Assembly (NCBI GenBank): GCA_025057975.1
Contig: JANWUV010000007.1
Coordinates: forward strand, 62,001-126,000
Reading direction: 5' to 3'
DNA: 64,000 nt
DNA from: Chloracidobacterium sp.
GTDB lineage: Bacteria; Acidobacteriota; Blastocatellia; Chloracidobacteriales; Chloracidobacteriaceae
Part shown: positions 25,055 through 38,137 of the stretch, piece after piece
Numbering within the stretch: the stretch's first letter is position 1
Layout of the letters: every line of letters begins with the position of its first letter
The notes under the pieces: model-generated
What the model was told of the DNA's origin: nothing
Databases searched by the model: none
The model's input: the letters and a program-made list of their open reading frames with translations, nothing else
Translations under genes and position numbers: made by a program

Positions 25055-26509
25055 CTATCCGAAGCCGAAGCCGCCGCGCCCAAACGAACCTGACCGTCCC
25101 GCCCGCGTTCCCGTAATGCGTCCGCCGGCACCGACCCGCACTGTGCTGCGCCCAAAACCACTCGGCTTGCTCCGTCCAACGCCCCGCGCGCCGCCTACCC
25201 GCGTGCTTGAAAACATCGTCTGCCGTGGGACTGGCGTGTAGCTCGGTACGCGCCCAGCCATCGGGTTCGTCGCCGGTGTGATTGTCCGGTAGTAGGGCGT
25301 ACGGCTGACGTACACCGGCGACGGCGCATAGCACGGGTAGGAATAGAAAAACCAGACGCTGCCGAGCGGATGTCCGCCGTAGTAATAACGCGGACGGCCG
25401 CCGCTCGCCGTCGTCTGGTTCGGGTCAGGGACGAACTCGCTCGCCGGGAGGATGGCGACCTGAATGCCCGCGTCCTTGTAGGCCACAAAGTCCTCGTTGA
25501 GGTCGTCCATCTCATGCTTTTGAGAGCTATTAGGCGTCACATAGATGATGTTTTTGACGCCAGCGGCGCGGAGCTTGTCCGCCGGCGGAACCTTCGCCAG
25601 ATAGCGGTTGTCGAACTGATTGTCGGCGTCCTTGTACTCATTGAGTCGGTAGGCGTCGAGCAAAAACACCGGCGGCGCGTCTTCGGGCAGCGTCGCCTGC
25701 TTGGCGGCGATTTCGTCGGCGTAGTACAGCATCGCTGCTAAGGTTTCGTGCGACGGGACGACGCCCAGCGGATGTGGGTAATTGTCAAAGGTCGTGATGA
25801 GCCGACAGCGGGCCGCCAGACCTGCACCGTAGGCGACGCTGTCACGCCCGATGAGGTCAACGAAGATCGCCGTTTCATTCGGGTTGGAGGCGTTGGCGAG
25901 AATGTCCTCAGCCAAGGCCTGACCACGTCCGTAGCTCGCGTCCATACTCGGAGAGAATATCGGCGTCAGTTGCGACCGGAGCGATTGGGCTTGCAGGGAT
26001 TGGATGAGCGTCGGCACAAAGTAGGGCTGCCAGCGGCCGCGCGGTTCAAACGCCCGCAGCATGGCGTCGGCAGCAAGATATTGCTTCCAAGCGTCGCTGT
26101 TGCGTGAGTCGAGGCGTGTCTGGGGAACGCCGAACGTCAGCGGCCGGTTTTCCGAACCGATGTTCCAGCCGCTTTTCTTCTGAAGCTCAAGCGAATCGGT
26201 GTCAATCTCCTCTTCCCCGAAGAGCGCCACCAAGCCCGCAATGCCGCCAACGGTGACGACGCCGGCTGCAACGCCGCCGATAATCCAGCCGCGCCGCGAA
26301 ACCTTTTGCCACCAAGGTTTTGTGCCGCTCACATAGCCGCCGGCCGGCGCGGCGTACGGATGGTACATCGGCGGCGCATAGTTGATGCGACCAACGCCGC
26401 CGGGGCCGGCAAACCACTCACTTGCGCCGCCGGAGGTATTGGAAGGCGCTTTGGACGCCTGCGGTATCTGAATCGGTGGTTTAGATGACGAAGGATATTG
26501 TTCCGACAT
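25055..26509 (-). CDS. Single-pass membrane protein with glycine-rich tail, unknown function
   Basis: About 484 residues from ATG 26509 (MSEQYPSSSKPPIQIP). The N-terminus (1-90) is Pro/Ser/Tyr-rich and disordered, followed by a basic stretch and one membrane helix (GWIIGGVAAGVVTVGGIAG, about 98-116). A folded domain (about 130-380) includes ETAIFVDLIGRDSVAYGAGL, PPVFLLDAYRLNEYKDADN and KNIIYVTPNSSQKHEMDDL. The C-terminal ~100 residues are Tyr/Pro-rich and then Arg/Gly-rich (GFGRSTVRVGAGG...). I do not recognise the folded domain. It is followed at once by the 24526-25026 gene. Confidence 0.7.
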   Translation of the reverse strand: MSEQYPSSSKPPIQIPQASKAPSNTSGGASEWFAGPGGVGRINYAPPMYHPYAAPAGGYVSGTKPWWQKVSRRGWIIGGVAAGVVTVGGIAGLVALFGEEEIDTDSLELQKKSGWNIGSENRPLTFGVPQTRLDSRNSDAWKQYLAADAMLRAFEPRGRWQPYFVPTLIQSLQAQSLRSQLTPIFSPSMDASYGRGQALAEDILANASNPNETAIFVDLIGRDSVAYGAGLAARCRLITTFDNYPHPLGVVPSHETLAAMLYYADEIAAKQATLPEDAPPVFLLDAYRLNEYKDADNQFDNRYLAKVPPADKLRAAGVKNIIYVTPNSSQKHEMDDLNEDFVAYKDAGIQVAILPASEFVPDPNQTTASGGRPRYYYGGHPLGSVWFFYSYPCYAPSPVYVSRTPYYRTITPATNPMAGRVPSYTPVPRQTMFSSTRVGGARGVGRSKPSGFGRSTVRVGAGGRITGTRAGRSGSFGRGGFGFG

Positions 26510-26783
26510 AGGCGCGTGGCGGAGGCCCGTGACGGAGGCCGAAGTGGAGGCGGTGGGGCGGTTCAAGCAGGCGAGCAAGGCTTGACCAACGGCTTGAACG
26601 TTACTTAGCACACTTTGGCCCGCCCGTGAATTGTTTTTCGTCCTTCCTCAGACTGCTTACAAATGCCGTTCACCGTTGCTCCCCGTTGCGCAAAGGCGCT
26701 GGCAGCCTGCGCCGGTTCAGGGTAGACGCTCCACCGAACGCAACACGGCGTGCGCGCCACCGACTCGGCAAAACGGGCAATTC

Positions 26784-27971
26784 CTACCGCGCAAGCCAAT
26801 TCCGAACGGTCGACCAGACGGTCGTTGTTGCGCCCCGTCCGACCACCAGCGCCAGATGCCCCAAGCGCGCTTGGTATTCCACATATCGCGCCGCCGGTAG
26901 TCGCTCCGCCAGCGCTATAGCGCTCGCCGGATGCACAATCTGATCCAATGACCCGATGATGTTGAGTACGGGACAGTCCAGCGCGTCAAGCGCCGCCCGC
27001 TGCCCGTCAACCAGTAGCTTTCCTTCCCACAGGGCGTTGTCCTGGTAGTAGGTCGTCACAAAGTCAGCGTAAAACCTTCCGGGCAGCGGCACGGCGTCCG
27101 CCAGCCACACTTCGACCGCTAGATGTGTCTCGCGGTCGGCGGCGTCCAGCCATATCAGCCACGGCTTTGTCGCGTAGGTCGCTGGCTTGACGCTCCGAAA
27201 TGACGCGCTTACCAACCACCCCGGTAGGTTTCCGAAAATCTCCGCTATGCGCTGTGGCTTGAATGTCGGCGTGGTCAGCCATGTGCGCAATGGCGCATCG
27301 CGCGTGAAGTCGGCCGGTGTCCCTAGCAGGATCAAACTCGCCGCCCGCGCCGGGGACAACGCTGCGTAAGTCGTCGCCAAGACGCCGCCCATCGAATAGC
27401 CAAGTAGATGCACAGCGCGCGCGCCGGTTTCGCTACCGACCGCTTCCACTGCGCGCCCGACAACGCCCACCACATCCTCCAGCCGCCACGCCTGCGCCGC
27501 CGCTGCGGGGCAACCCCAATCCAGCGCGAAGACCTCCTGACCGGCCGCCGTCAGATAGGCGATAAAACTGCGCCCAGCATACAGGTCAAAAATGTAATGG
27601 CGGTTGATGAGCGAGTTGACGATCAATACCGGCGCACGCTTGCGCCGTCGGCCGTTTACGCCCGCCGGCGGATAACGCCGTAACCACGTATGCCCCACCA
27701 GGGGCACCATGGCGCAGGGCGTCGTCGCCGTCGGCGGCGCAACAGCCCGGGCCGCCGCCAACAGCGCCGCCTGCCGCACTTCCTGAGCCAGCGTGAACGG
27801 ATGCCACGGCGCAGCCGCACCAGCCAGCGCCACCCAATCCAACCAATGATCAAGCGTCCAGCCGGCTGCGTGCGCCAAGACTGGGGTTCCAGCGATGCGC
27901 AGCAACCGGTCGTCCAGCGCCCATTGCCAGTACTCGACAAACGCGCTTAAGCGCGACGCTTCAGTTGTCAC
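26784..27971 (-). CDS. PHA synthase-like alpha/beta hydrolase (PhaC class III type) with Ser nucleophile
   Basis: A 395-residue protein built like class III PHA synthase PhaC: VLIVNSLINRHYIFDL, the core FALDWGCP, the nucleophile elbow HLLGYSMGG, then NIIGSLDQIVHP with the acid (D343) and LGHLALVVG with the base (H372). In PHA synthases the elbow is G-x-C-x-G with an essential Cys; here it is Ser193. So it may be a depolymerase-like esterase, or a synthase with an unusual nucleophile. Context supports PHA: the GTG start overlaps the stop of a PhaE-like gene (GTGA, 27968-27971), with a phasin-like gene and phaR next door. Confidence 0.8.
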   Translation of the reverse strand: MTTEASRLSAFVEYWQWALDDRLLRIAGTPVLAHAAGWTLDHWLDWVALAGAAAPWHPFTLAQEVRQAALLAAARAVAPPTATTPCAMVPLVGHTWLRRYPPAGVNGRRRKRAPVLIVNSLINRHYIFDLYAGRSFIAYLTAAGQEVFALDWGCPAAAAQAWRLEDVVGVVGRAVEAVGSETGARAVHLLGYSMGGVLATTYAALSPARAASLILLGTPADFTRDAPLRTWLTTPTFKPQRIAEIFGNLPGWLVSASFRSVKPATYATKPWLIWLDAADRETHLAVEVWLADAVPLPGRFYADFVTTYYQDNALWEGKLLVDGQRAALDALDCPVLNIIGSLDQIVHPASAIALAERLPAARYVEYQARLGHLALVVGRGATTTVWSTVRNWLAR

Positions 27972-28480
27972 GATGAAGAGGATGCGGCGTCGGAAGTGGA
28001 GATCGTCTCAGGCACAGAAGCCGCCTCAACCGCCTTGCGTGCGGCACGCTTGCGGCCCGACGGGGACGCCGGTTTCACAGTTGGCGAAGGCTTCTCCTTT
28101 CGGCCGGCGATTCCTTTTGCGCTTGAAGCTCTCTGGGCAGTCGTCGCCCGCGCTGCGCGCTTCGGAGCAGCAACGTCGGTCAGGTGCGCCGTCAGGTCGT
28201 CCAGCCGGTCGTGCAGCGCCGTCAACTTGTGGTCGAGGGCGGCAATTTCCTCGCGCGTCGGCAGGTTCATCATCCGCAGCCCGAAGCCCATCAACGCCCG
28301 CGTCCGTTCCAACAGCGTCAAAACGCCGTTGATGTAGAGTGATACCGGACGCAAAAACCACGGATGGCGCAGCACGGCGTCCCACTGCGCCGCCGAAGTT
28401 CGGGTGAGCATGTCGTAAAGCGCCTGCGGAAAGGATTTGGCGGACTGAGACGCTTTTGCGCCGCCGGCGGCTTTAGCCAT
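27968..28480 (-). CDS. PhaE/phasin-like helical protein with basic tail
   Basis: About 170 residues from ATG 28480 (MAKAAGGAKASQSAKSFPQ); a longer reading to 28645 crosses the terminator hairpin and is rejected. The middle has amphipathic helices (WFLRPVSLYINGVLTLLERT, then REEIAALDHKLTALHDRLDD, a likely coiled coil). The C-terminal ~60 residues are Ala/Lys/Pro/Ser-rich, like the basic tails of PHA-granule proteins. By position (directly upstream of and coupled to the PhaC-like gene) it is a candidate PhaE-type partner or granule-associated protein. Family assignment is by context rather than a firm motif. Confidence 0.6.
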   Translation of the reverse strand: MAKAAGGAKASQSAKSFPQALYDMLTRTSAAQWDAVLRHPWFLRPVSLYINGVLTLLERTRALMGFGLRMMNLPTREEIAALDHKLTALHDRLDDLTAHLTDVAAPKRAARATTAQRASSAKGIAGRKEKPSPTVKPASPSGRKRAARKAVEAASVPETISTSDAASSSS

Positions 28481-28512
28481 TCGGGAAAGCCTCGAAACCG
28501 TGAAAGTGAAGA

Positions 28513-28557
28513 TAAAGGGGGCGCTTGTCCGTGCTGAAGCCTGACGGATGAGCGCCC
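28513..28557 (-). terminator. Hairpin terminator/attenuator between phasin-like and PhaE-like genes
   Basis: On the minus strand: GGGCGCT, an internal CA/CA mismatch, TCCGT, an 11-base loop, ACGGA, AGCGCCC, then CC and TTTA. It lies just after the phasin-like stop (28567) and before the start of the PhaE-like gene (28480). Partial termination here would make more phasin than synthase (inference). Confidence 0.5.
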
Positions 28558-28566
28558 ACAGGGATT

Positions 28567-28941
28567 CTACTTGACGAATTGGTTGATTGGAAACGCCAGC
28601 AAGTCCATCTGCTTGCGCAGGCTGTCGCCGACCAGCACGTTCCATTGCTCAAACGTGGCGCGTACGGCATCGGCCCCGGCGGTGACAACTTCACGCGCCG
28701 CATCCCCGGCGGCGGCTGTCGTCCGGTCGGCGCCGGCAATCATCGTCATCGCCGACTTGAGGGCCTCTTCCTGCACAGCTAGTCCAGCGCGCAGGCTGGT
28801 GAACGCAACGCTTCGCAGGGACGAAGCCGCGTCCAGCATGGCGTCCGTAGCAACTCGCATGGCTTTGGTCATTGGGTCGAGCATGGTTGATTGCCGCTCG
28901 GCGGCTTCGTTGGGTTTGTCGGTCTGCTTTGACTGCGCCAT
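28567..28941 (-). CDS. Phasin-like protein
   Basis: A 124-residue, Ala-rich, almost fully helical protein without Cys or signal peptide: AMRVATDAMLDAASSLRSVA, AGLAVQEEALKSAMTM, DAAREVVTAGADAVRATFEQ and WNVLVGDSLRKQMDLL. Amphipathic low-complexity helices of this kind are typical of phasins, which coat PHA granules. Strong Shine-Dalgarno AAGGAGT before the ATG. It is the first gene after the promoter that diverges from phaR, the usual place for a phasin gene under PhaR control. Confidence 0.72.
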   Translation of the reverse strand: MAQSKQTDKPNEAAERQSTMLDPMTKAMRVATDAMLDAASSLRSVAFTSLRAGLAVQEEALKSAMTMIAGADRTTAAAGDAAREVVTAGADAVRATFEQWNVLVGDSLRKQMDLLAFPINQFVK

Positions 28942-29021: not shown

Positions 29022-29042
29022 TTTTTCGCATTTGCACAAAAA
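29022..29042. promoter_or_regulatory. Candidate PhaR operator 1 (GCA-AA-TGC palindrome)
   Basis: An imperfect palindrome with TTTTT and AAAAA ends around a GCA-AA-TGC core (read on the minus strand). It touches the -35 box of the phasin promoter. PhaR-type repressors are known to bind TGC/GCA-rich repeats; its use here is inferred. Confidence 0.35.
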
Positions 29043-29122: not shown

Positions 29123-29141
29123 GTTTTGCGCTTGCAAAAAC
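29123..29141. promoter_or_regulatory. Candidate PhaR operator 2 (TGC-N4-GCA palindrome)
   Basis: GTTTTGC-GCTT-GCAAAAAC, a near-perfect inverted repeat with core TGC-N4-GCA, about 80 bases upstream of phaR. It fits autoregulation of phaR and control of the operon that follows. Confidence 0.4.
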
Positions 29142-29217
29142 TGACAAAACTCCTTTACTTCGAGTACTTTATAAAAAAACTATTGACGATATTGAAGCCA
29201 ATTGCGTAAAAACGCCC

Positions 29218-29748
29218 ATGACGCGACGTACACCCACGCATAACGCGCTCATCATCAAGCGATACGGCAACCGGCGGCTTTATGACACGGAATCCGGCGG
29301 CTATCTAACCAATCAAGATGTCATTGACATCATTCGGCAGGGGCGCGACATCCGTGTGGTGGATTCCCGCACCGGCGAGGACATCACCAAAATGGTGCTG
29401 GTCAACATCATCCTCGAAGAAGAAAAGCTCCGGCAAAATCTCCTACCAGTGTCGTTTCTCTTGCAGCTGATCCGCTTGCAGGGTGAAACCATTCAGGATT
29501 TCTTTCAGAACTACCTTACGGCGAGTCTGGAAGCGTATCTGAAAACGCGCCGGGAGTTTGACCGCCGCTTCCGCGAGTGGCTTGACCTTGGGGCGGCGAT
29601 GACCGCCTTTGCCAATCCGCCGGAGCGCCCTGCCGTAACTGACGACGTAGAAGATAAGGACGCCGCTGCGCCGGTCAAAACGCCACGTCGAACCACGAAA
29701 AAGACGGCGCCGAAGTCCCGTACGAAACGTTCCCCGAAAACGCCATGA
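29218..29748 (+). CDS. phaR: Polyhydroxyalkanoate synthesis repressor PhaR
   Basis: A 176-residue DNA-binding regulator that senses PHA granules. The N-terminal domain has the family signature IIKRYGNRRLYDTESGGYLT, then QDVIDIIRQGRDIRVVDSRT and GEDITKMVLVNIILEEE (residues about 11-70). A second helical region (EEKLRQNLLPVSFLLQLIRL to about 130) is the PHB-accumulation regulatory part. The C-terminus is basic and Pro/Lys-rich. It diverges from the phasin-like gene and its TGA overlaps the start of the acyl-CoA ligase gene (ATGA, 29745-29748), so it heads a five-gene operon. Confidence 0.92.
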   Translation: MTRRTPTHNALIIKRYGNRRLYDTESGGYLTNQDVIDIIRQGRDIRVVDSRTGEDITKMVLVNIILEEEKLRQNLLPVSFLLQLIRLQGETIQDFFQNYLTASLEAYLKTRREFDRRFREWLDLGAAMTAFANPPERPAVTDDVEDKDAAAPVKTPRRTTKKTAPKSRTKRSPKTP

Positions 29749-31289
29749 CCGTTTCCACGTGCCCACCGACAGCTTGGCTTGCCGCCCGCGCGCGCCTGTC
29801 GCCCGACAAAACGGCGCTCATTGACGCGCAACGCGGCTATGCTCCGGTCACGTACGGCGCATGGTTTCGGCGTGTCAACCAGACGGTGCGTTTTCTGCGG
29901 GATGGGTTGGGTGTCCAGCCCGGCGATCGCGTCGCCGTCCTCGCCCGCAACCGGGTTGAATACCTTGACGTGTGGTTTGCGCTTGGACATATCGGCGGCG
30001 TACTCCAAAACCTCAACTGGCGTCTGAGCCGACGCGAACTGGCGGCCATTCTTGCCGACGCCGCGCCGGTCGCCCTGCTCTACGACGCGCCACATGCGGC
30101 ATTGGCCGCCGAACTCGCCGCCGAGCAATCGCCTCCCCTGCGCCGCGTCGCCTTCGACGCTCCCGACGCCGACACCCTGGCCTTTGGCGAACGCGATACA
30201 CTTTCCGCCGAACCGCCGCCGCCGCCGTCCATCACCGCTGAAGCGCCGTGGGTGCTCTGCTACACCGGCGGCTCGACCGGCACGCCTAAGGGGGCCGTCT
30301 TGTCGCACCGCGCCATTTTCGCCAACGCCGTCAACACCGTTCTGTCGTGGGGACTGCGTCCCGATGACGTGACGCTCCTCGACGCGCCGCTGTTTCATAC
30401 CGGCGGCCTCAACGTTCTGACCGCGCCGCTGGTCGCCGTCGGCGGGACGAGCATTGTTACGGGCGGTTTTGCGCCCGATCAGACGTTTGACGCTGTTGAA
30501 CGCCACGGCGTCACCATCCTGTTCGGCGTCCCGACGATGTTTATTGAACTCCAGCGTCATCCGCGCTGGGCGACAGCCGACTTCAGCCGCCTGCGCTTCA
30601 TCATCAGCGGCGGCGCGCCCTGCCCGATGAGCGTGTTTGAGGCCTTCTGGGCCAAGGGTGTCGCTTTCAAAACCGGTTATGGGCTGACCGAAGCCGGGCC
30701 GAACAATTTCTGGCTGCCTGAAGAACAGGTGCGCGAAAAACCTGGCGCCGTCGGCTATCCGCTCTGGTCGGTTGAGGCGCGCATTGTGCGATCAGACGGC
30801 GTAGAGGCTGCGCCCGATGAAGTCGGCGAACTTTGCCTGCGCGGGCCGCACCTGTTTTCCGGCTACTGGAACAACCCCGCTGCAACGGCCGCCGCCGTGG
30901 ACGCCGACGGTTGGCTTCACACCGGCGATCTGGCGGCGCGCGACGCCGACGGCTGTTTCCGCATCGTCGGCCGCCTCAAGGAAATGTTCATTTCCGGCGG
31001 CGAAAACGTCTATCCAGCCGAAGTCGAGAGCGTCTTGCACGAGCATCCGTCCGTCGTCGAAGCCGCCGTCGTCGGTGTTCCTGACCCCAAGTGGGGCGAA
31101 GTCGGCGCGGCGTTTGTCGTGCTCACCGGCGACGCAAGCGACGATGAGCTGACGGCGTTTTGCCGGGCGCGCTTAGCGGGCTACAAGGTTCCGAAACGCT
31201 TTATCCGTCTTCCGGCGCTGCCGCGCACCGGCGCGCACAAGATCGACAAAGCGGCGCTGCGCCGCCGCATCACCGAAGAAAGGCTATAA
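29745..31289 (+). CDS. Acyl-CoA ligase (AMP-binding, ANL family) I
   Basis: A 514-residue acyl-activating enzyme that makes acyl-AMP and then acyl-CoA. Motifs: P-loop YTGGSTGTPKGAVLSHRAIF, the A5 segment GYGLTEAGPNNFWL, TGDLAARDADGCFRIVGRLK (A7/A8 hinge) and SGGENVYPAEVESVLHEHP, with the A10 lysine in HKIDKAAL. It resembles medium/long-chain acyl-CoA ligases more than acetyl-CoA synthetase. Coupled to phaR by ATGA overlap and followed after 3 bases by the hydrolase gene. Probably activates a free 3-hydroxy or fatty acid for the KAS III-like enzyme (inference). Confidence 0.9.
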   Translation: MTVSTCPPTAWLAARARLSPDKTALIDAQRGYAPVTYGAWFRRVNQTVRFLRDGLGVQPGDRVAVLARNRVEYLDVWFALGHIGGVLQNLNWRLSRRELAAILADAAPVALLYDAPHAALAAELAAEQSPPLRRVAFDAPDADTLAFGERDTLSAEPPPPPSITAEAPWVLCYTGGSTGTPKGAVLSHRAIFANAVNTVLSWGLRPDDVTLLDAPLFHTGGLNVLTAPLVAVGGTSIVTGGFAPDQTFDAVERHGVTILFGVPTMFIELQRHPRWATADFSRLRFIISGGAPCPMSVFEAFWAKGVAFKTGYGLTEAGPNNFWLPEEQVREKPGAVGYPLWSVEARIVRSDGVEAAPDEVGELCLRGPHLFSGYWNNPAATAAAVDADGWLHTGDLAARDADGCFRIVGRLKEMFISGGENVYPAEVESVLHEHPSVVEAAVVGVPDPKWGEVGAAFVVLTGDASDDELTAFCRARLAGYKVPKRFIRLPALPRTGAHKIDKAALRRRITEERL

Positions 31290-31292
31290 CCC

Positions 31293-32093
31293 ATGCCGTA
31301 CGTTACGACCAACGGCGTCAACCTCTACGTCGAAGACACCGGCGGCGACCTCCCGCCCGTCCTTCTCATCACCGGTCTGGGCTACGACGAGTGGTTCTGG
31401 ATGGAAACCGTCGCGCCGCTGCTGCGCGACCGCTACCGCCTAATTGCGCCTGCCAATCGCGGCGCGGGACGCAGCGACAAGCCGGCCGGTCCCTACACAA
31501 CAGCGCAGATGGCGGCGGATATGGTCGGCGTGCTGGACGCGCTCGGCGTCGAGCGCGCCATCGTCGTCGGTCATTCCCTTGGCGGCTTCATCGCGCAGGA
31601 GCTTACACTTGCGCATCCGACGCGCGTCACCAAGCTAGTCCTAGCCGGCACAAGCTTTGGCGGCCCAGAAGCCATCCCGCCGACGCCGGCCGCCATGGCC
31701 GTGCTGATGCTTGACCGGACGATGGACCCAATGGAGTTGATCCGGCGCGGCCTTGAAACGGCCGTTGCGCCGTCGTTTCTTGCCGCCAAGCCGCCGATGC
31801 TGGAGCGGCTCATCGCCTACCGACTGACGACGCCTGTGCCGCCGGAAGCCTTCCAGAGTCAGATGCTGGCCGGCGCGACGCACAATGCCGCCGACCGCAT
31901 TGCGGCCATCACCTGCCCGACGCTGATTCTCGCCGGTGAGTTGGATCAAGTTGTACCGCCCGGCAACGTCGCCTTGCTCAAGGCAAAGCTGCCGCAGGCC
32001 GAAACGGTCATGATTTCTGACGCCGGGCACCTGTTCCCCATCGAGAAACCCAACGAAACGGCGGCGGCGCTGGCTGCCTTCTTCGCCGCCTGA
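31293..32093 (+). CDS. Alpha/beta hydrolase
   Basis: A 266-residue hydrolase with the complete triad: the nucleophile elbow VVGHSLGGF (Ser), LILAGELDQVVPPGN (Asp) and ISDAGHLFPIEKP (His). The oxyanion region is LLITGLGYDEWFW. It resembles 3-oxoadipate enol-lactonase/esterase-type hydrolases, so it could cleave a thioester or ester. It sits between the first acyl-CoA ligase (3-base gap) and the KAS III-like gene (13-base gap with AAGGAG upstream of the next ATG), clearly one operon. Confidence 0.9.
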   Translation: MPYVTTNGVNLYVEDTGGDLPPVLLITGLGYDEWFWMETVAPLLRDRYRLIAPANRGAGRSDKPAGPYTTAQMAADMVGVLDALGVERAIVVGHSLGGFIAQELTLAHPTRVTKLVLAGTSFGGPEAIPPTPAAMAVLMLDRTMDPMELIRRGLETAVAPSFLAAKPPMLERLIAYRLTTPVPPEAFQSQMLAGATHNAADRIAAITCPTLILAGELDQVVPPGNVALLKAKLPQAETVMISDAGHLFPIEKPNETAAALAAFFAA

Positions 32094-32106
32094 AGGAGAC
32101 GCGCCT

Positions 32107-33102
32107 ATGACGCGCTACGCCCACATCCTGGCCACCGGCAGTTACGCGCCCGCGCAAGTCGTCCCGAACGCCGTTTTTGACGCCCGCTTTGGTGAACCGA
32201 TTGACGCATGGCTTCAGGCCAACGTTGGCATCCGCGAACGGCGCTACATGGCCGCCGACGAAACGACCTCCGACTTAGCCGTGGCCGCCGCCCGGCAGGC
32301 GCTGGAGCGCGCTGGACTCGACGCCGCCGACCTTGACCTCATCATTGTCGCCACCGACACGCCGGATTATCTCTCGCCGGCGACGGCTTCAGTCGTACAG
32401 ACCAAGCTTGGCGCGCACCGCGCCGGGGCGTTCGACCTCAACGCCGCCTGCGCAGGCTGGGTGACGGCGCTCAATCAGGCGGCGCTGATGATGGCCGCCG
32501 ACGCCGACTATCGGCGCGTCCTTGTTGTCGGCGGCTACGGGATGAGCCGCTTTCTCGACCCGAACGACAAATATACGGCGACGCTCTTCGCCGACGGCGC
32601 GGGCGCAGTCATTCTGGCGGCCGGCGACAAGCCGGGCTTTTTGGCCGGCAAGCTGCAAGCCGTCGGTGGATTTCATGACGCGATGGGGATTTACACTGGC
32701 GGCGCGTTTCGTCCCTGCACGCTGGAAACGCTCGCTGCTTTTGGTCCGCCAAAGGTGCAGTTTGTACGAAAGTTTCCGCGCACGTTCAACACCGAGTACT
32801 GGCCGGCGCTGATTCAGGCCACGCTGGCCAAGGCGAAACTGACGCTCGCCGATGTAGATTGGTTCCTGTTCACGCAAATCAACCTGCGGACGATTGAAAT
32901 GGTCATGGCGATGCTTGGCCAGCCAGTCGAAAAAACGCACTGGGTAATGGACAAGTGGGGCTACACCGGTTCGGCCTGCCTGCCGATGGCGCTCGACGAC
33001 CTTGCCACAACACGGCGCGGCTTGAAGCCGGGACAGACCATCGTCTTTTGCGCCAGCGGCGGCGGCATTGCGCTGGCGGCTTCCGTGTGGAGGTGGGTCT
33101 AG
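32107..33102 (+). CDS. KAS III (FabH)-like enzyme lacking the catalytic His and Asn
   Basis: A 331-residue thiolase-fold protein. Cys115 is present in DLNAACAGW. The FabH motif PHQAN is FTQIN here (Thr256 replaces His) and the GNTSAA motif is GYTGSA (Tyr286 replaces Asn). Other KAS III marks are normal: ATDTPDYLSPATAS, FADGAGAVIL and CASGGGIALAAS at the end. Without His and Asn, malonyl decarboxylation and C-C condensation are unlikely. It may instead be an acyltransferase forming esters or thioesters through Cys, as known for some divergent KAS III enzymes. Between a hydrolase and the second acyl-CoA ligase, whose ATG follows its stop by one base. Confidence 0.9.
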   Translation: MTRYAHILATGSYAPAQVVPNAVFDARFGEPIDAWLQANVGIRERRYMAADETTSDLAVAAARQALERAGLDAADLDLIIVATDTPDYLSPATASVVQTKLGAHRAGAFDLNAACAGWVTALNQAALMMAADADYRRVLVVGGYGMSRFLDPNDKYTATLFADGAGAVILAAGDKPGFLAGKLQAVGGFHDAMGIYTGGAFRPCTLETLAAFGPPKVQFVRKFPRTFNTEYWPALIQATLAKAKLTLADVDWFLFTQINLRTIEMVMAMLGQPVEKTHWVMDKWGYTGSACLPMALDDLATTRRGLKPGQTIVFCASGGGIALAASVWRWV

Positions 33103-33103
33103 C

Positions 33104-34669
33104 ATGCTTGTCGGACTGGGCGACTATCTTGGACGCCGCGCCATTTATTCGCCGGACGCGCTGGCCTTTGTCGACGCCGGCAAGGCCGAACCGCTCCGGC
33201 TGACCTTCGCTGAAGCCAACGTGCGCGCCGTGCGCGTCGCAGCCGCGCTGCGGCGGTTGGGCGTCGGCGCAGGTGATCGGGTGGCGCTGCTGGCCCGCGA
33301 CGGCATTGAACATCTCGATTGTTTTTTCGCCTGCGCCAAGCTCGGCGCGCTCCATACGCCGTTCAACTGGCGACTGCACTGGCGTGAGAATTTGGCAATC
33401 CTGAAACGGCTTGAGCCGCGTGTGCTGCTGTTTGGAAGCGACTTCGCAACGGCGGTTGCCGAGATGCGCGAGACAGGTGAACTCGGCGCGACGCGGTTGG
33501 TTCATTTGGACGGCGAGCCGGTCGCCGACAGCGTGGCATTTGCCGAGTGGCTTGCGGCGCCTGCGCCTGATTTCGCGCCGACGCCGGTGCAGCCGGAGGA
33601 CATTGCGGCGCTCATCTTCACCGGCGGCACGACCGGGACGCCCAAAGCTGCCGCGATTTCACACCGGCAAATCGCGTGGAACACCCTCAACACGGTCATT
33701 CACGACCTACGGCACGGCGACCGCTACTTGAACGTGTTTCCGCTGTTTCACACAGGCGGGTTGTTTGTCTATACCGTGCCGCTTGCGCTCCTCGGTGGGA
33801 CGACTGTACTGATGCGCCAGTTTGACGCGGCGCAAACACTGAACCTCATTGCGCGCGAACGCATTACGGTCTTTGCGGGCGTGCCGACGATGTACCAGAT
33901 GATGACGGCCGCGCCGAACTGGCCAACGGCGGATTTGTCGTCGCTGCGCTTTTGCACGAGCGGCGGCGCGCCGCTCCCGTTGTCGCTCATTGAGACCTAC
34001 CGCGCCGCGAAGGGTGTCTGTTTCAAGCAGGGTTTCGGGATGACGGAGTTTGGTCCCGGCGTCTTTGCGCTTGCGCCGGAGGACGCTGAACGCAAGGCCG
34101 GCTCCATCGGGCGTCCCAACTTCTTCATTGAGGCTGCCGTGATGGACGACGCTGGGACGCTATTGCCGCCTGACACGGCCGGTGAACTGGTTTTGCGCGG
34201 CCCAGCGGGGTCGTCCGGCTACTTCGGCGCTGAGGAAGCGACGGCCGCAAGCCGCGACGCCGACGGCTGGTTTCACACGGGTGATGTCGCCCGCTACGAC
34301 GCTGAAGGGTTCTTCTTCATCGTGGATCGCAAGAAGGACATGTTCATTTCGGGCGGCGAAAACGTCTATCCGGCGGAAATTGAGCAGGCGCTATATGCGC
34401 ATCCGGCGGTCGCCATGTGCGCCGTCGTAGGCGTCCCCGACGCAAAATGGGGCGAGGTCGGCGCGGCTTGCGTCGTGTTGAAGCCAGGCGCGACGGCGAC
34501 CGAAGCGGAACTCATCGCGTTTTTGCGCGAGCGGCTGGCAGGCTACAAAACGCCGAAGTCGGTGCATTTCTTTGACGCGCTGCCGATGAGCGCCGCTGGC
34601 AAGATTCTCAAGCGCGATCTGCGCACGCTCCTAACGCAGCCGCCCGAAGGCCAGTCCGACCAACCGTAA
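33104..34669 (+). CDS. Acyl-CoA ligase (AMP-binding, ANL family) II
   Basis: A 521-residue ligase from ATG 33104, which has GGAGGTG ten bases upstream inside the end of the KAS III-like gene. Motifs: IFTGGTTGTPKAAAISHRQI, QGFGMTEFGPGVF, TGDVARYDAEGFFFIVDRKK and SGGENVYPAEIEQALYAHP, with the A10 lysine in AGKILKRDL. It is related to ligase I but not a close duplicate (the N-terminal thirds differ much). Last gene of the phaR operon. Two ligases suggest two acyl substrates are brought together. Confidence 0.9.
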   Translation: MLVGLGDYLGRRAIYSPDALAFVDAGKAEPLRLTFAEANVRAVRVAAALRRLGVGAGDRVALLARDGIEHLDCFFACAKLGALHTPFNWRLHWRENLAILKRLEPRVLLFGSDFATAVAEMRETGELGATRLVHLDGEPVADSVAFAEWLAAPAPDFAPTPVQPEDIAALIFTGGTTGTPKAAAISHRQIAWNTLNTVIHDLRHGDRYLNVFPLFHTGGLFVYTVPLALLGGTTVLMRQFDAAQTLNLIARERITVFAGVPTMYQMMTAAPNWPTADLSSLRFCTSGGAPLPLSLIETYRAAKGVCFKQGFGMTEFGPGVFALAPEDAERKAGSIGRPNFFIEAAVMDDAGTLLPPDTAGELVLRGPAGSSGYFGAEEATAASRDADGWFHTGDVARYDAEGFFFIVDRKKDMFISGGENVYPAEIEQALYAHPAVAMCAVVGVPDAKWGEVGAACVVLKPGATATEAELIAFLRERLAGYKTPKSVHFFDALPMSAAGKILKRDLRTLLTQPPEGQSDQP

Positions 34670-34711: not shown

Positions 34712-37700
34712 ATGCACTGCCGATTGTTGCGCCTCTGTCTGGCGCTGCTGCTTGGCTGCGCGGTGGGCCTGCCAGTTTGGGGGCAGGTTTCAACTGGGCA
34801 GTTGAGTGGAACTGTCACCGATCCGTCCGGGGCGGCCATTGCCGGGGCGACCGTGACCGTCACCCAGAAGGCAACGGGGGCGACGCGCACGGTCACGACC
34901 GGTGAAAACGGCGCGTATGTCGTCCCGTTGCTGCCGCCGGGCATGTACAAAGTGGAAGTCACCGCCCCCAACTTCCGCAAGACGGTGCTTGACGAAGTGC
35001 CCGTGCGGATTACTGAAAACACTACTGTGGATTTGACCTTGCAGGTCGGGGAAGTCGGCGGCGAAGTGGTCGTCGTCTCCGCCGAAGGCGCGCTTGTCCG
35101 CACCGACTCGTCGAGTCAGGGGCGCGTTATTGAGGAGCGCAGCATCCGCCAACTACCGCTCCCGACACGCAACTTCCAGCAACTGCTAACGCTCAGCGCG
35201 GGCACTTCAGCCAACATCACCAACACGTCGGAAGTCGGACGCGGCGACACGGCCATCAACGTCAACGGCCAGCGCACGACGAGCAATTCCGTCCTGATCA
35301 ACGGCATTGACGCTAACTCCATTGGGACCGGCTCAACGCCGAACCTCGCCGTACCGGCGACCGACTCGCTTCAGGAGTTCATTGTGCTAACCAGCCAGTA
35401 CGACGCTTCGGCCGGGCGCAACGCGGGCGGCATTGTCACCGCCGTGACCAAATCCGGCACGAACGAGTTTCACGGCAACGCCTATTTCTTCCTGCGCGAC
35501 ACCTCGCTCAACGCCAACAACTTCTTCCTCAAGCGGCAGGGGATTGATCGGCAGACGAACGAGCGTTACCAGTACGGCGGCACGCTGGGCGGCCCCATCG
35601 TCAAGGATCGGCTGTGGTTTTTCGGCTCCTATCAGGGGACGCGCGAAACCAACGGCACGTCGCTGACCAACAGCTTAGCTGTCATTGGGACACCCCCGGA
35701 TCTGACCGACGACCGTTCGGACGCGGCGCTGGCGGCGCTGTCGCGGGCGCGCGCGCCGGGCCTCGCGCTGTTCGGGCAACTGGGCTTCGTCAATCCGGTG
35801 GCGCGGCGACTGCTTCAGGCGCGGTATCCCGACGGCTCGTTTTTGATTCCGTCGGGCAATGGGCAGATTGCGCGCATCCTACCGACGCTGTCCAAGTTCC
35901 GCGAGGAGCAGTTCAACGCTAACGTGGACGCCCAAATCGGCAGCGCCAACCGGCTGGCGGTCAAGTTTTTCTTCGCCAACAACCGGACCGACCAAGGGCT
36001 GTTTAGCCAGTTTGGGCTGGGGAACGCGCTTCAGACGCCCGGCTACCCAGTGCGCACGGAAGCCAACAACCGCTTCCTGTCCGTCACCGATACGCATGCG
36101 TTTGCAAGCGGCTTCATCAACGAAGCGCGGTTCGGCTTCAACATCATCCCGGCTAAGGCTGTGCCGACCGAACCCTTTACAGCAGCGCAGTTTGGCATCA
36201 ACTCGCCGAATCGCGGGCGGTTTCCGGGTATGCCGGCCATTGGCCTGACGAACCTGTTTACGGTTGGCCCGTCTGGGTTTTCGGCTAGCGACAACCAAGC
36301 CGATACGCTGACGGCGGGCGACACCGTGACCTACACCCTCGGCAACCACGCCATGAAATTCGGCGGCGAATATCGCTACAACCGCGTCCGGGTGGATTTC
36401 GACGTGTTTGCGCGCGGCTCGATCACCTTCACGGGTGCGCTGGCGAATCTGCCGTCGCTGGCGCCGCTGTTTGCACCAGGACGCCGCGACGCCTTCACCG
36501 AGTTTCTCGTTGCGGACGCTTTTCCAGGCTTCAACCCGACGTTCTCCATCATCGGCCCCGGCGCGGCCAAGCGGCAGGTGCGCGCCCATGACTTTGCACT
36601 CTTCTTCCAAGACGACTGGAAGATTCACCCGCGGCTAACGCTCAACCTTGGCGTTCGGTATGACTATTTCGGGCCATTCTTCGACACCGAAGGGCGGTTT
36701 GTGACCTTTGACCCGGATCGCTTCCGCGCTGGCGCGCCTGGCAACGGCTTTTTGCAGGCTGGGAACGCCAATCCGGGTGTTCCGAATGTGCCGAAAATCG
36801 AGCGCGGGCTTGTTCCACCCGACCGCAACAACTTCGCGCCGCGCACCGGCTTCGCCTTCCGCCCGCTGGAAAGCAATCGGTTCGTGATTCGGGGCGGTTA
36901 CGGGATTTACTACGACCGGCCAAACTCGCGCGTGGTCAACAATCAGGCGCTGACGTATCCCTACTACACATTGGCGCTGGCGCAGTTTTCGCGGCCGCTG
37001 GCTAACCCATTCGTCCCGATTCCGCAGCAATACCCAGTCGGCTTTCCGTTTATCGTCCCGAACGATTTGTTCAATCCCGCCCTGCCAGTCGGACCGACGA
37101 ACCAACCGACGATTGTCATCCCAGTGCAGGGCATTTACCTCAACCGCAAGCTGCGCACGCCTTACGTCCAGCAGTACTCCCTTGGCTTCCAGTGGGAGTT
37201 TATCCGCGACACGCAGCTTGAGATTGCCTATGTCGGTTCGGTGGGCCGCAAGCTCACGCGCTTCCGCAACCTCAACCAGACGACCTCGCCAAACGCGGTC
37301 GGGACGTTCACCCTCAGTCCACTGCTTTCGACGATTCCCACTATCGGCTTCGGCGTCCATGCGCAGGAGACGACGGCGAATTCAAGCTACAACTCGCTGC
37401 AAATCAGCGTCACGCGCCGACTGTCGAAGGGCCTGCAGGGGCTATTTGCCTACACGTGGTCGCACACGATTGACAACTACTCCGGTCAGATTACCTCGCT
37501 GGGAACGAGCGACGTATCCGCCGATGTGGGCGATCAGGCGACTTTCGCCGGGACGCGCGGGACGGCGGATTTCGACCGGCGGCACCGCGTCGTGGCGAGT
37601 TTTGTTTATGACCTGCCGAAGTTTTATCAGGGCGACAACTTGGCGGCGAAACTCTTGCTCAACGACTGGCAGATTGCAGCGGTGAGCATTGTTCAGTCGG

Positions 37701-38137
37701 GGCTGCCGTTCAACGTCATTTCGGGACGCGGGCTATTTGACGCTTCGCGGGCGGATTACGTTCCGGGCTTCCGGGGGAGCGCGGCACGCAGCGGCAACGT
37801 CCGTAACCGGTTGGACAACTACTTCAACACGGGAGCGTTTGTCGTCGCGACGGGCGTCGGCAACTTCGGCAACACGGGACGGAACATCCTGCGCGGGCCG
37901 GCGCAGGCCAACACGGATATTTCCATTGTGAAGTTCTTCCCAATTAGCGAACGGCAACGGGTGGAGTTTCGGACGGAGTTCTTCAACGCCTTCAACCAGA
38001 CGAACTTTGCCAACCCGGTCAGTACGGGTGCGCCGCTTGTACCAGGTGGGCCGCCGCTGAATCCGAACTTCGGGCGGATTCTCTCGACCTCGACCGGACC
38101 GCGGTTGATCCAGTTCGCGTTCAAGTACAACTTCTAA
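34712..38137 (+). CDS. Oar-like TonB-dependent outer-membrane receptor I
   Basis: A 1141-residue outer-membrane protein. Signal peptide ends near VWGQVS. A carboxypeptidase-regulatory domain (about 25-110) begins GQLSGTVTDPSGAAIAGATV, followed by a plug region (about 120-240, including NVNGQRTTSNSVLINGID and GGIVTAVTKSGTNEFHGN) and a long beta-barrel ending in FAFKYNF, with terminal Phe as in outer-membrane barrels. Acidobacteria have many such Oar/SusC-distant receptors for large nutrients or adhesion. Two Shine-Dalgarno-like GGAG sequences lie upstream. It follows the acyl operon after 42 bases but is probably a separate unit. Confidence 0.9.
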   Translation: MHCRLLRLCLALLLGCAVGLPVWGQVSTGQLSGTVTDPSGAAIAGATVTVTQKATGATRTVTTGENGAYVVPLLPPGMYKVEVTAPNFRKTVLDEVPVRITENTTVDLTLQVGEVGGEVVVVSAEGALVRTDSSSQGRVIEERSIRQLPLPTRNFQQLLTLSAGTSANITNTSEVGRGDTAINVNGQRTTSNSVLINGIDANSIGTGSTPNLAVPATDSLQEFIVLTSQYDASAGRNAGGIVTAVTKSGTNEFHGNAYFFLRDTSLNANNFFLKRQGIDRQTNERYQYGGTLGGPIVKDRLWFFGSYQGTRETNGTSLTNSLAVIGTPPDLTDDRSDAALAALSRARAPGLALFGQLGFVNPVARRLLQARYPDGSFLIPSGNGQIARILPTLSKFREEQFNANVDAQIGSANRLAVKFFFANNRTDQGLFSQFGLGNALQTPGYPVRTEANNRFLSVTDTHAFASGFINEARFGFNIIPAKAVPTEPFTAAQFGINSPNRGRFPGMPAIGLTNLFTVGPSGFSASDNQADTLTAGDTVTYTLGNHAMKFGGEYRYNRVRVDFDVFARGSITFTGALANLPSLAPLFAPGRRDAFTEFLVADAFPGFNPTFSIIGPGAAKRQVRAHDFALFFQDDWKIHPRLTLNLGVRYDYFGPFFDTEGRFVTFDPDRFRAGAPGNGFLQAGNANPGVPNVPKIERGLVPPDRNNFAPRTGFAFRPLESNRFVIRGGYGIYYDRPNSRVVNNQALTYPYYTLALAQFSRPLANPFVPIPQQYPVGFPFIVPNDLFNPALPVGPTNQPTIVIPVQGIYLNRKLRTPYVQQYSLGFQWEFIRDTQLEIAYVGSVGRKLTRFRNLNQTTSPNAVGTFTLSPLLSTIPTIGFGVHAQETTANSSYNSLQISVTRRLSKGLQGLFAYTWSHTIDNYSGQITSLGTSDVSADVGDQATFAGTRGTADFDRRHRVVASFVYDLPKFYQGDNLAAKLLLNDWQIAAVSIVQSGLPFNVISGRGLFDASRADYVPGFRGSAARSGNVRNRLDNYFNTGAFVVATGVGNFGNTGRNILRGPAQANTDISIVKFFPISERQRVEFRTEFFNAFNQTNFANPVSTGAPLVPGGPPLNPNFGRILSTSTGPRLIQFAFKYNF

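Follow-up and report, generated by a model that had tools for sequence, protein, structure and literature searches.

Published PhaR motifs from Sinorhizobium, Rhodobacter and Ralstonia have the form YGC-N3/4-GCR and lie before phasin and phaR genes, and granules of polyhydroxyalkanoate (PHA) titrate the repressor in described PhaR systems (PMC12542648, PMC12849132). Among proteins with the fold of ketoacyl-acyl carrier protein (ACP) synthase III (KAS III), ChlB3 and CerJ act as acyltransferases with a Cys-His-Asp triad (PMC9573744), and the condensing enzyme OleA also uses an acid, which is supplied by the other subunit (PMC7064751). Here we describe a locus of Chloracidobacterium sp., a member of a genus of hot-spring phototrophs (genome 3.52 Mb), in which phaR heads genes for two acyl-coenzyme A (CoA) ligases (lig1 and lig2), a hydrolase (hyd) and an atypical KAS III-like protein. 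The locus lies in a stretch of 64,000 nucleotides (contig JANWUV010000007.1 of assembly GCA_025057975.1, positions 62,001 to 126,000), hereafter the window. We give roughly even chances to the reading that it is a PhaR-controlled and partly foreign module for acyl uptake and CoA activation that would supply PHA metabolism, the metabolic part of which we infer from protein families and gene neighborhood. The predicted storage control is well supported by sequence evidence, and the supply of monomers is plausible.

The coordinates of the genes and sites are collected in Table 1. As the initial annotation had stated, the five genes from phaR to lig2 lie on the plus strand, with an ATGA overlap between phaR and lig1 followed by gaps of 3, 13, and 1 bases; all of these values were read directly from the sequence and matched exactly. 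The gene for a TonB-dependent outer-membrane transporter (TBDT) begins 42 bases after lig2. No terminator-like site was found on the plus strand in these 42 bases, and the TBDT gene follows lig2 in all six genus genomes with an intact locus; the operon therefore very probably includes the TBDT gene, so that the proposed five genes stand while the size of the predicted unit is revised to six. The order phaR-lig1-hyd-KAS-lig2-TBDT was intact in six of the seven Chloracidobacterium genomes, that of the window included, and in the seventh phaR-lig1-hyd was kept as far as the contig end. Since the same order is found throughout the genus genomes, this co-directional run is more than chance. The complete genomes of the genus consist of two replicons of ~2.7 and ~1.0 Mb, and the operon is located on the smaller one.

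In a profile search, the PhaR protein exceeded the cutoff of TIGR01848 (115.9 vs. 109.45 bits), and its DNA-binding and C-terminal polyhydroxybutyrate (PHB)-accumulation domains were also above their cutoffs (PF07879 and PF05233). The 276 bases between phaR and a divergent phasin-like gene contain two predicted palindromic operators of the YGC/GCR type. Operator 1 keeps its position across the genus, and two other members of the family (G008 and G009) have similar palindromes in the phasin-phaR interval. Operator 2 has counterparts in two further genus genomes (G002 and G003). In G001, G005, and G006, the phasin-PhaE-PhaC-like block is detached from phaR, by ~8–10 kb in G001 and G006 and by a greater distance in G005, and both promoters retain a copy of the operator. 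The predicted operators resemble the published PhaR motifs in form, with a spacing between the GC pairs of four bases rather than three; the operator of Paracoccus denitrificans PhaR has the form CTGCN3-4GCAG, in which four-base spacing is allowed. A genome-wide operator search with one mismatch allowed gave no more matches than the reversed control pattern, and therefore operators were counted only if they were exact or conserved in position. A conserved block before phaR is a candidate promoter, although it was not detected by a sigma-70 scan. Taken together, the predicted operators support control of the whole divergent locus by PhaR, in agreement with the earlier proposal of a storage regulator.

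The alignment of the KAS III-like protein with its relatives revealed that Asp84, Cys115, Thr256, and Tyr286 are invariant in all 123 members of its clade, which spans six phyla, whereas 13 FabH-type paralogues from the same data carry Cys-His-Asn and have no acid at position 84. A separate KAS III copy of the FabH type with Cys-His-Asn is also present in Chloracidobacterium. The AlphaFold2 model of the protein (mean pLDDT, the predicted local distance difference test, 92.4) was closest to FabH 4ryb (template modeling [TM] scores 0.89/0.92). FabH uses its His and Asn to decarboxylate malonyl groups; as both are replaced here, the active site of the clade should not work as that of FabH does, in line with the atypical KAS III of the initial annotation. 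The idea that Gln simply replaces the His of a FabH was rejected, because the alignment pairs the FabH motif PHQAN with FTQxN, so that His corresponds to Thr256 and Gln257 is conserved. Judging from the offset in the TIGR01835 alignment, Asp84 presumably occupies the position of the catalytic Glu of 3-hydroxy-3-methylglutaryl-CoA (HMG-CoA) synthase. This favors non-decarboxylating acyl-CoA chemistry, and the enzyme is probably non-decarboxylating. It cannot be assigned to HMG-CoA synthases by family score (39.7 bits vs. 360 for TIGR01835), and of the Glu-Cys-His set it has an acid and Cys and no His. A search of the open-licence literature found no description of this clade, and wherever annotation was available, its members were labelled plainly as ketoacyl-ACP synthase III.

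Both ligases and the hydrolase retain their catalytic motifs. Lig1 carries TGGSTGTPK, YGLTE, HTGD, and the C-terminal Lys; its best NCBIfam model was PRK06839, below the cutoff of that model. Lig2 scored 477 bits against the cutoff of 476 for PRK06187, and its gene adjoins the KAS gene in most loci of Chloroflexota, Myxococcota, and Ignavibacteriota. The hydrolase has the GHSLGG motif and the expected Asp and His, and its nearest solved relatives are esterases.

The link with PHA comes from other Blastocatellia, where the same KAS clade is co-located with PHA synthase genes. In six of the eight decidable genomes outside the genus (G271, G350, G381, G401, G433, and G436), no more than 10 kb separates a KAS gene of this clade from a synthase gene (phaC) with a Cys nucleophile, the denominator comprising non-genus Blastocatellia with both the KAS clade and a Cys-type PhaC and excluding G435 and G405, in which contig ends intervene. 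At an assumed 1% per genome, the chance of six in eight would be ~3e-11, a value that ignores the kinship of these related genomes. The cluster of G401 (L335) has the order TetR, KAS, PhaR (reverse), phasin, long PhaC, two MaoC-type genes, ligase, and short PhaC, and that of G350 (L063) the order TetR, TBDT, hydrolase, KAS, phasin-like gene, two MaoC-type genes, ligase, and PhaC. These gene neighborhoods support a tie between the KAS clade and PHA metabolism in Blastocatellia. Of the storage-controlled acyl pathway suggested in the initial annotation, the PHA link is supported and the wax is not; no partner genes for a wax or an Ole-type ester were seen.

The KAS clade was found in Acidobacteriota, Myxococcota, Chloroflexota, Ignavibacteriota, Bipolaricaulota, and Competibacter-type Pseudomonadota. 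The scan of genome contigs was limited to its 80 best loci, so that both the phylum counts and the tree are weighted to close relatives. Some twelve loci of Chloroflexota and Ignavibacteriota share the order ligase-hydrolase-KAS-ligase; the gene order, for which a search in other genomes had been proposed, is thus not unique to this genome, and the refuting condition of the initial annotation, an order confined to it, does not hold. The KAS-lig2 pair is present in most loci outside Acidobacteriota. Within the genus, the KAS proteins are 81–92% identical to that of the window; foreign relatives reach 67%, and those of other Blastocatellia lie at 47–56%. In a quick tree with supports from the Shimodaira–Hasegawa-like approximate likelihood ratio test (SH-aLRT) and no bootstrap, the Chloracidobacterium proteins formed a clade (100) nested in a 73-row clade mostly of other phyla (99) and apart from the Blastocatellia clade (99). 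The position among foreign phyla and the identity pattern support lateral acquisition of the enzyme cassette before the genus diversified; it appears to have been taken from a Chloroflexota-related lineage into a class that has its own PHA-tied version of the module. Arrival of the TBDT with the cassette was not supported, as its closest homologues are from Blastocatellia; in most genomes of the class the closest homologue adjoins the KAS gene, except for G008, G009, and G271, in which it is located away from KAS (65–67% identity).

Across 120 KAS loci, the neighbors included hydrolase (85), TetR (61), short-chain dehydrogenase/reductase (SDR; 48), TonB transporter (33), and Liv-type ATP-binding cassette (ABC) importer genes (20–26), and ligases, thiolase, and an oligonucleotide/oligosaccharide-binding (OB)-fold protein were also usual. 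Judging by these neighborhoods, the cassette in most other phyla goes with TetR and importers and not with PhaR. Rare exceptions outside Blastocatellia were a Paraliomyxa locus with PhaR and PhaC near KAS (L197) and a Chloroflexi locus with PhaC (L199). A search of plasmids with the KAS protein gave a single match, on one Chloroflexota plasmid (L244, CP069395.1 36527–61525), where a CoA-transferase adjoins KAS; next to them lie genes for an OB-fold protein and for a Liv-type ABC importer, and the annotation of this stretch shows no ligase. Five loci of Competibacter and Contendobacter (L141, L153, L156, L157, and L182) carry the same KAS clade (63–65% identity) with no adjoining ligase; these are PHA-cycling sludge bacteria. 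In Chloroflexota, a PRK06840-type companion KAS was seen near the same cassette (L206:5549–6571, L199:5754–6776, and L208:3220–4248); at the corresponding positions it carries Glu, Cys, His, and Asp, which unusually combines the patterns of HMG-CoA synthase and CerJ. The locus labelled as Comamonas sp. KCTC 72670 (L185) fell inside the Myxococcus group, and this assembly is likely mislabelled or mixed.

According to the proposed scheme, PhaR free of granules would repress its own operon and the phasin block, and PHA granules would titrate it. The TBDT and the hydrolase would import or release carboxylic acids, which the ligases would convert to acyl-CoAs. The KAS III-like enzyme, acyl-loaded on Cys115, may then join or move acyl groups between CoA thioesters without decarboxylation, with Asp84 as the base and Thr256 and Tyr286 in place of the oxyanion pair His/Asn of FabH, and the products might reach PHA synthase directly or via a reductase or hydratase. 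A bolder version, which we think unlikely, would count the Asp-Cys-Thr-Tyr clade as a new catalytic class among enzymes that condense acyl-CoAs; together with a CoA ligase, and in Chloracidobacterium under PhaR, it would supply 3-ketoacyl-CoA for PHA with no need of PhaA.

The same components could form an ordinary module for uptake and activation of hydrophobic carboxylic acids or esters in catabolism, in which the transporter, an esterase, CoA ligases, and a thiolase-like KAS would feed beta-oxidation; its placement behind phaR would be incidental, with expression when carbon is plentiful or stored. We regard this as only somewhat unlikely, and it stays a strong rival because the module outside Blastocatellia mostly sits with TetR and importers. 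The usual neighbors listed above fit it, as does the Chloroflexota plasmid, with its CoA-transferase next to KAS and no annotated ligase. Several observations weigh against a role in PHA supply. The genus holds a full beta-oxidation gene set, which the ligases could feed (6 acyl-CoA dehydrogenases, 9–11 crotonase matches, and 3 thiolases), and the Chloracidobacterium operon contains no MaoC or SDR gene. PhaC was near KAS in only 7 of the 120 loci and PhaR in 10, most of the latter from Chloracidobacterium; outside Blastocatellia, the genes beside KAS are mostly those for TetR, ligases, and importers of the ABC or TonB type rather than PHA genes, and the family members G008 and G009 have no KAS gene near PhaC. 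In addition, a published overview names glycogen alone as the storage compound of Chloracidobacterium (PMC4400912). Against purely catabolic use stand the co-location with PHA synthase, partly also with phasin and PhaR, in the six Blastocatellia genomes, and the predicted PhaR operators; both point to storage.

Two other functions were considered for the enzyme and the operon. The KAS III-like protein might be an acyltransferase, CerJ/ChlB3-like or PhaG-like, that moves acyl groups between CoA and a carrier protein or a hydroxyl and links fatty-acid synthesis to PHA or lipid. It retains Cys and has lost the decarboxylation residues, and acyltransferases with the KAS III fold are known; however, it has Tyr286 and Cys291 where ChlB3 and CerJ have the His-Asp pair that activates Cys, pure transfer leaves the invariant Asp84 unexplained, and no ACP gene was noticed in the clusters. 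We consider this function improbable. Production of an exported or membrane lipid (wax, ester, hydrocarbon, or polyketide-like) instead of a PHA precursor seems highly improbable. The combination of ligase, KAS, and hydrolase is superficially like OleA, OleB, and OleC, but the operon has no OleD-type partner, the KAS falls in the FabH-like clade, no wax synthase-type gene was seen, and the conserved neighbors are importers and PHA genes. An Ole cluster, which requires OleA, OleB, OleC, and OleD together, was rejected on the first two of these grounds, as the initial annotation had anticipated. The PhaR-controlled supply module is the reading that we prefer.

The divergent block beside phaR encodes phasin-, PhaE-, and PhaC-like proteins. 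The phasin-like gene is named mainly by its place beside phaR and the PhaC-like genes, as in L126 and L127. The PhaE-like orthologues are 47–65% identical and adjoin the PhaC-like gene in the genus; the listed PhaE-like reading frame overlaps the phasin-like one by 79 bases, and its true start is probably an internal ATG downstream of the listed one. The PhaC-like protein has a Ser nucleophile in all seven genus orthologues, instead of the Cys in G-x-C-x-G of class III PhaC, and is below the cutoff of TIGR01836. With Ser as the catalytic residue, the protein may be an esterase, a partner subunit of a synthase, or an enzyme that breaks the polymer down. A longer Ser-type PhaC paralogue adjoins a Cys-type PhaC in G007, G008, G009, G433, G435, and G436, and the matching longer paralogue is of the Cys type in G271 and G401; no description of Ser-type PhaC in Acidobacteriota was found in the open-licence literature. 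Two more PhaC-like genes are present in the window genome (G000:C8:80704–81627 and G000:C11:43286–44296), the second of which is of the Cys type and scores close to the cutoff of TIGR01836 (347.8 vs. 365.3 bits). Downstream of the PhaC-like gene, a 518-aa protein (25055–26611, minus strand) was not recognised as a member of any family, with a weak GltJ match below cutoff, and has a 78% identical counterpart in the same place in G003.

Table 1. Genes and predicted sites of the phaR locus (positions in the window).
Feature	Position	Strand	Description
PhaC-like gene	26784–27971	-	Ser nucleophile (GYSMGG), Asp/His kept; TIGR01836 200.9 bits vs. cutoff 365.3
PhaE-like coiled-coil gene	27968–28645	-	Weak PHA_synth_III_E match, E 0.052
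Small phasin-like gene	28567–28941	-	Very weak Phasin_2 match, E 0.57; divergent from phaR
Predicted PhaR operator 1	29024–29040	+	TTTCGCATTTGCACAAA; beside phasin promoter region; position kept across genus
Predicted PhaR operator 2	29123–29140	+	TTTTGCGCTTGCAAAA core; similar palindrome, nearer phaR; one mismatch to pattern
Candidate phaR promoter	29183–29212	+	TTGACG...AATTGCGTAAAA block; conserved before phaR in six genus genomes
phaR	29218–29748	+	PHA granule-sensing regulator, first gene of operon; TIGR01848, PF07879, PF05233
lig1	29745–31289	+	ANL-superfamily acyl-CoA ligase; PF00501/PF13193, usual catalytic motifs
hyd	31293–32093	+	Alpha/beta hydrolase; PF00561, catalytic motifs
KAS III-like gene	32107–33102	+	KAS III fold; PF08545/PF08541 over cutoffs
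lig2	33104–34669	+	ANL-superfamily acyl-CoA ligase; PRK06187
TBDT gene	34712–38137	+	TonB-dependent Oar-like outer-membrane transporter, probable sixth operon gene; PF25183, PF13620

These results connect a large KAS III-like clade, for which no described function was found, with carbon storage within a single class of bacteria. If PHA monomers are indeed made or routed by it, these thermophilic phototrophs would offer a new entry point to the composition of the polymer. Comparison with known systems demonstrated that the protein shares with FabH the fold and length, the catalytic Cys, and the Gln of the PHQAN motif, while Thr256 stands for His, Tyr286 for Asn, Asp84 is invariant, and position 39, where Arg is common in FabH, is mostly Asn, Ser, or Val. 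An acid in the catalytic site is presumably shared with the non-decarboxylating condensing enzymes HMG-CoA synthase and OleA; unlike in HMG-CoA synthase, there is no catalytic His, Asp replaces Glu, and the score is far under the family cutoffs. ChlB3 and CerJ likewise have a KAS III fold without the FabH catalytic pair, but the last two residues of their Cys-His-Asp triad are Tyr and Cys here.

The Blastocatellia clusters L063, L335, L336, and L337 (TetR, TBDT, hydrolase, KAS, MaoC, ligase, phasin, and PhaC) share the KAS clade and the subfamily of the TonB transporter with the Chloracidobacterium locus and are physically linked to PHA synthase genes, whereas Chloracidobacterium has a Chloroflexota-type KAS, other ligases, PhaR heading the operon instead of TetR, no MaoC in that operon, and its Cys-type PhaC elsewhere in the genome. 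As in the PhaR regulons of alpha- and betaproteobacteria, a PhaR with a PHA-accumulation domain is accompanied by predicted YGC-N3/4-GCR operators before the phasin and phaR genes; the locus of Chloracidobacterium differs from them in the four-base spacing and in the acyl-activation cassette placed behind phaR in one operon.

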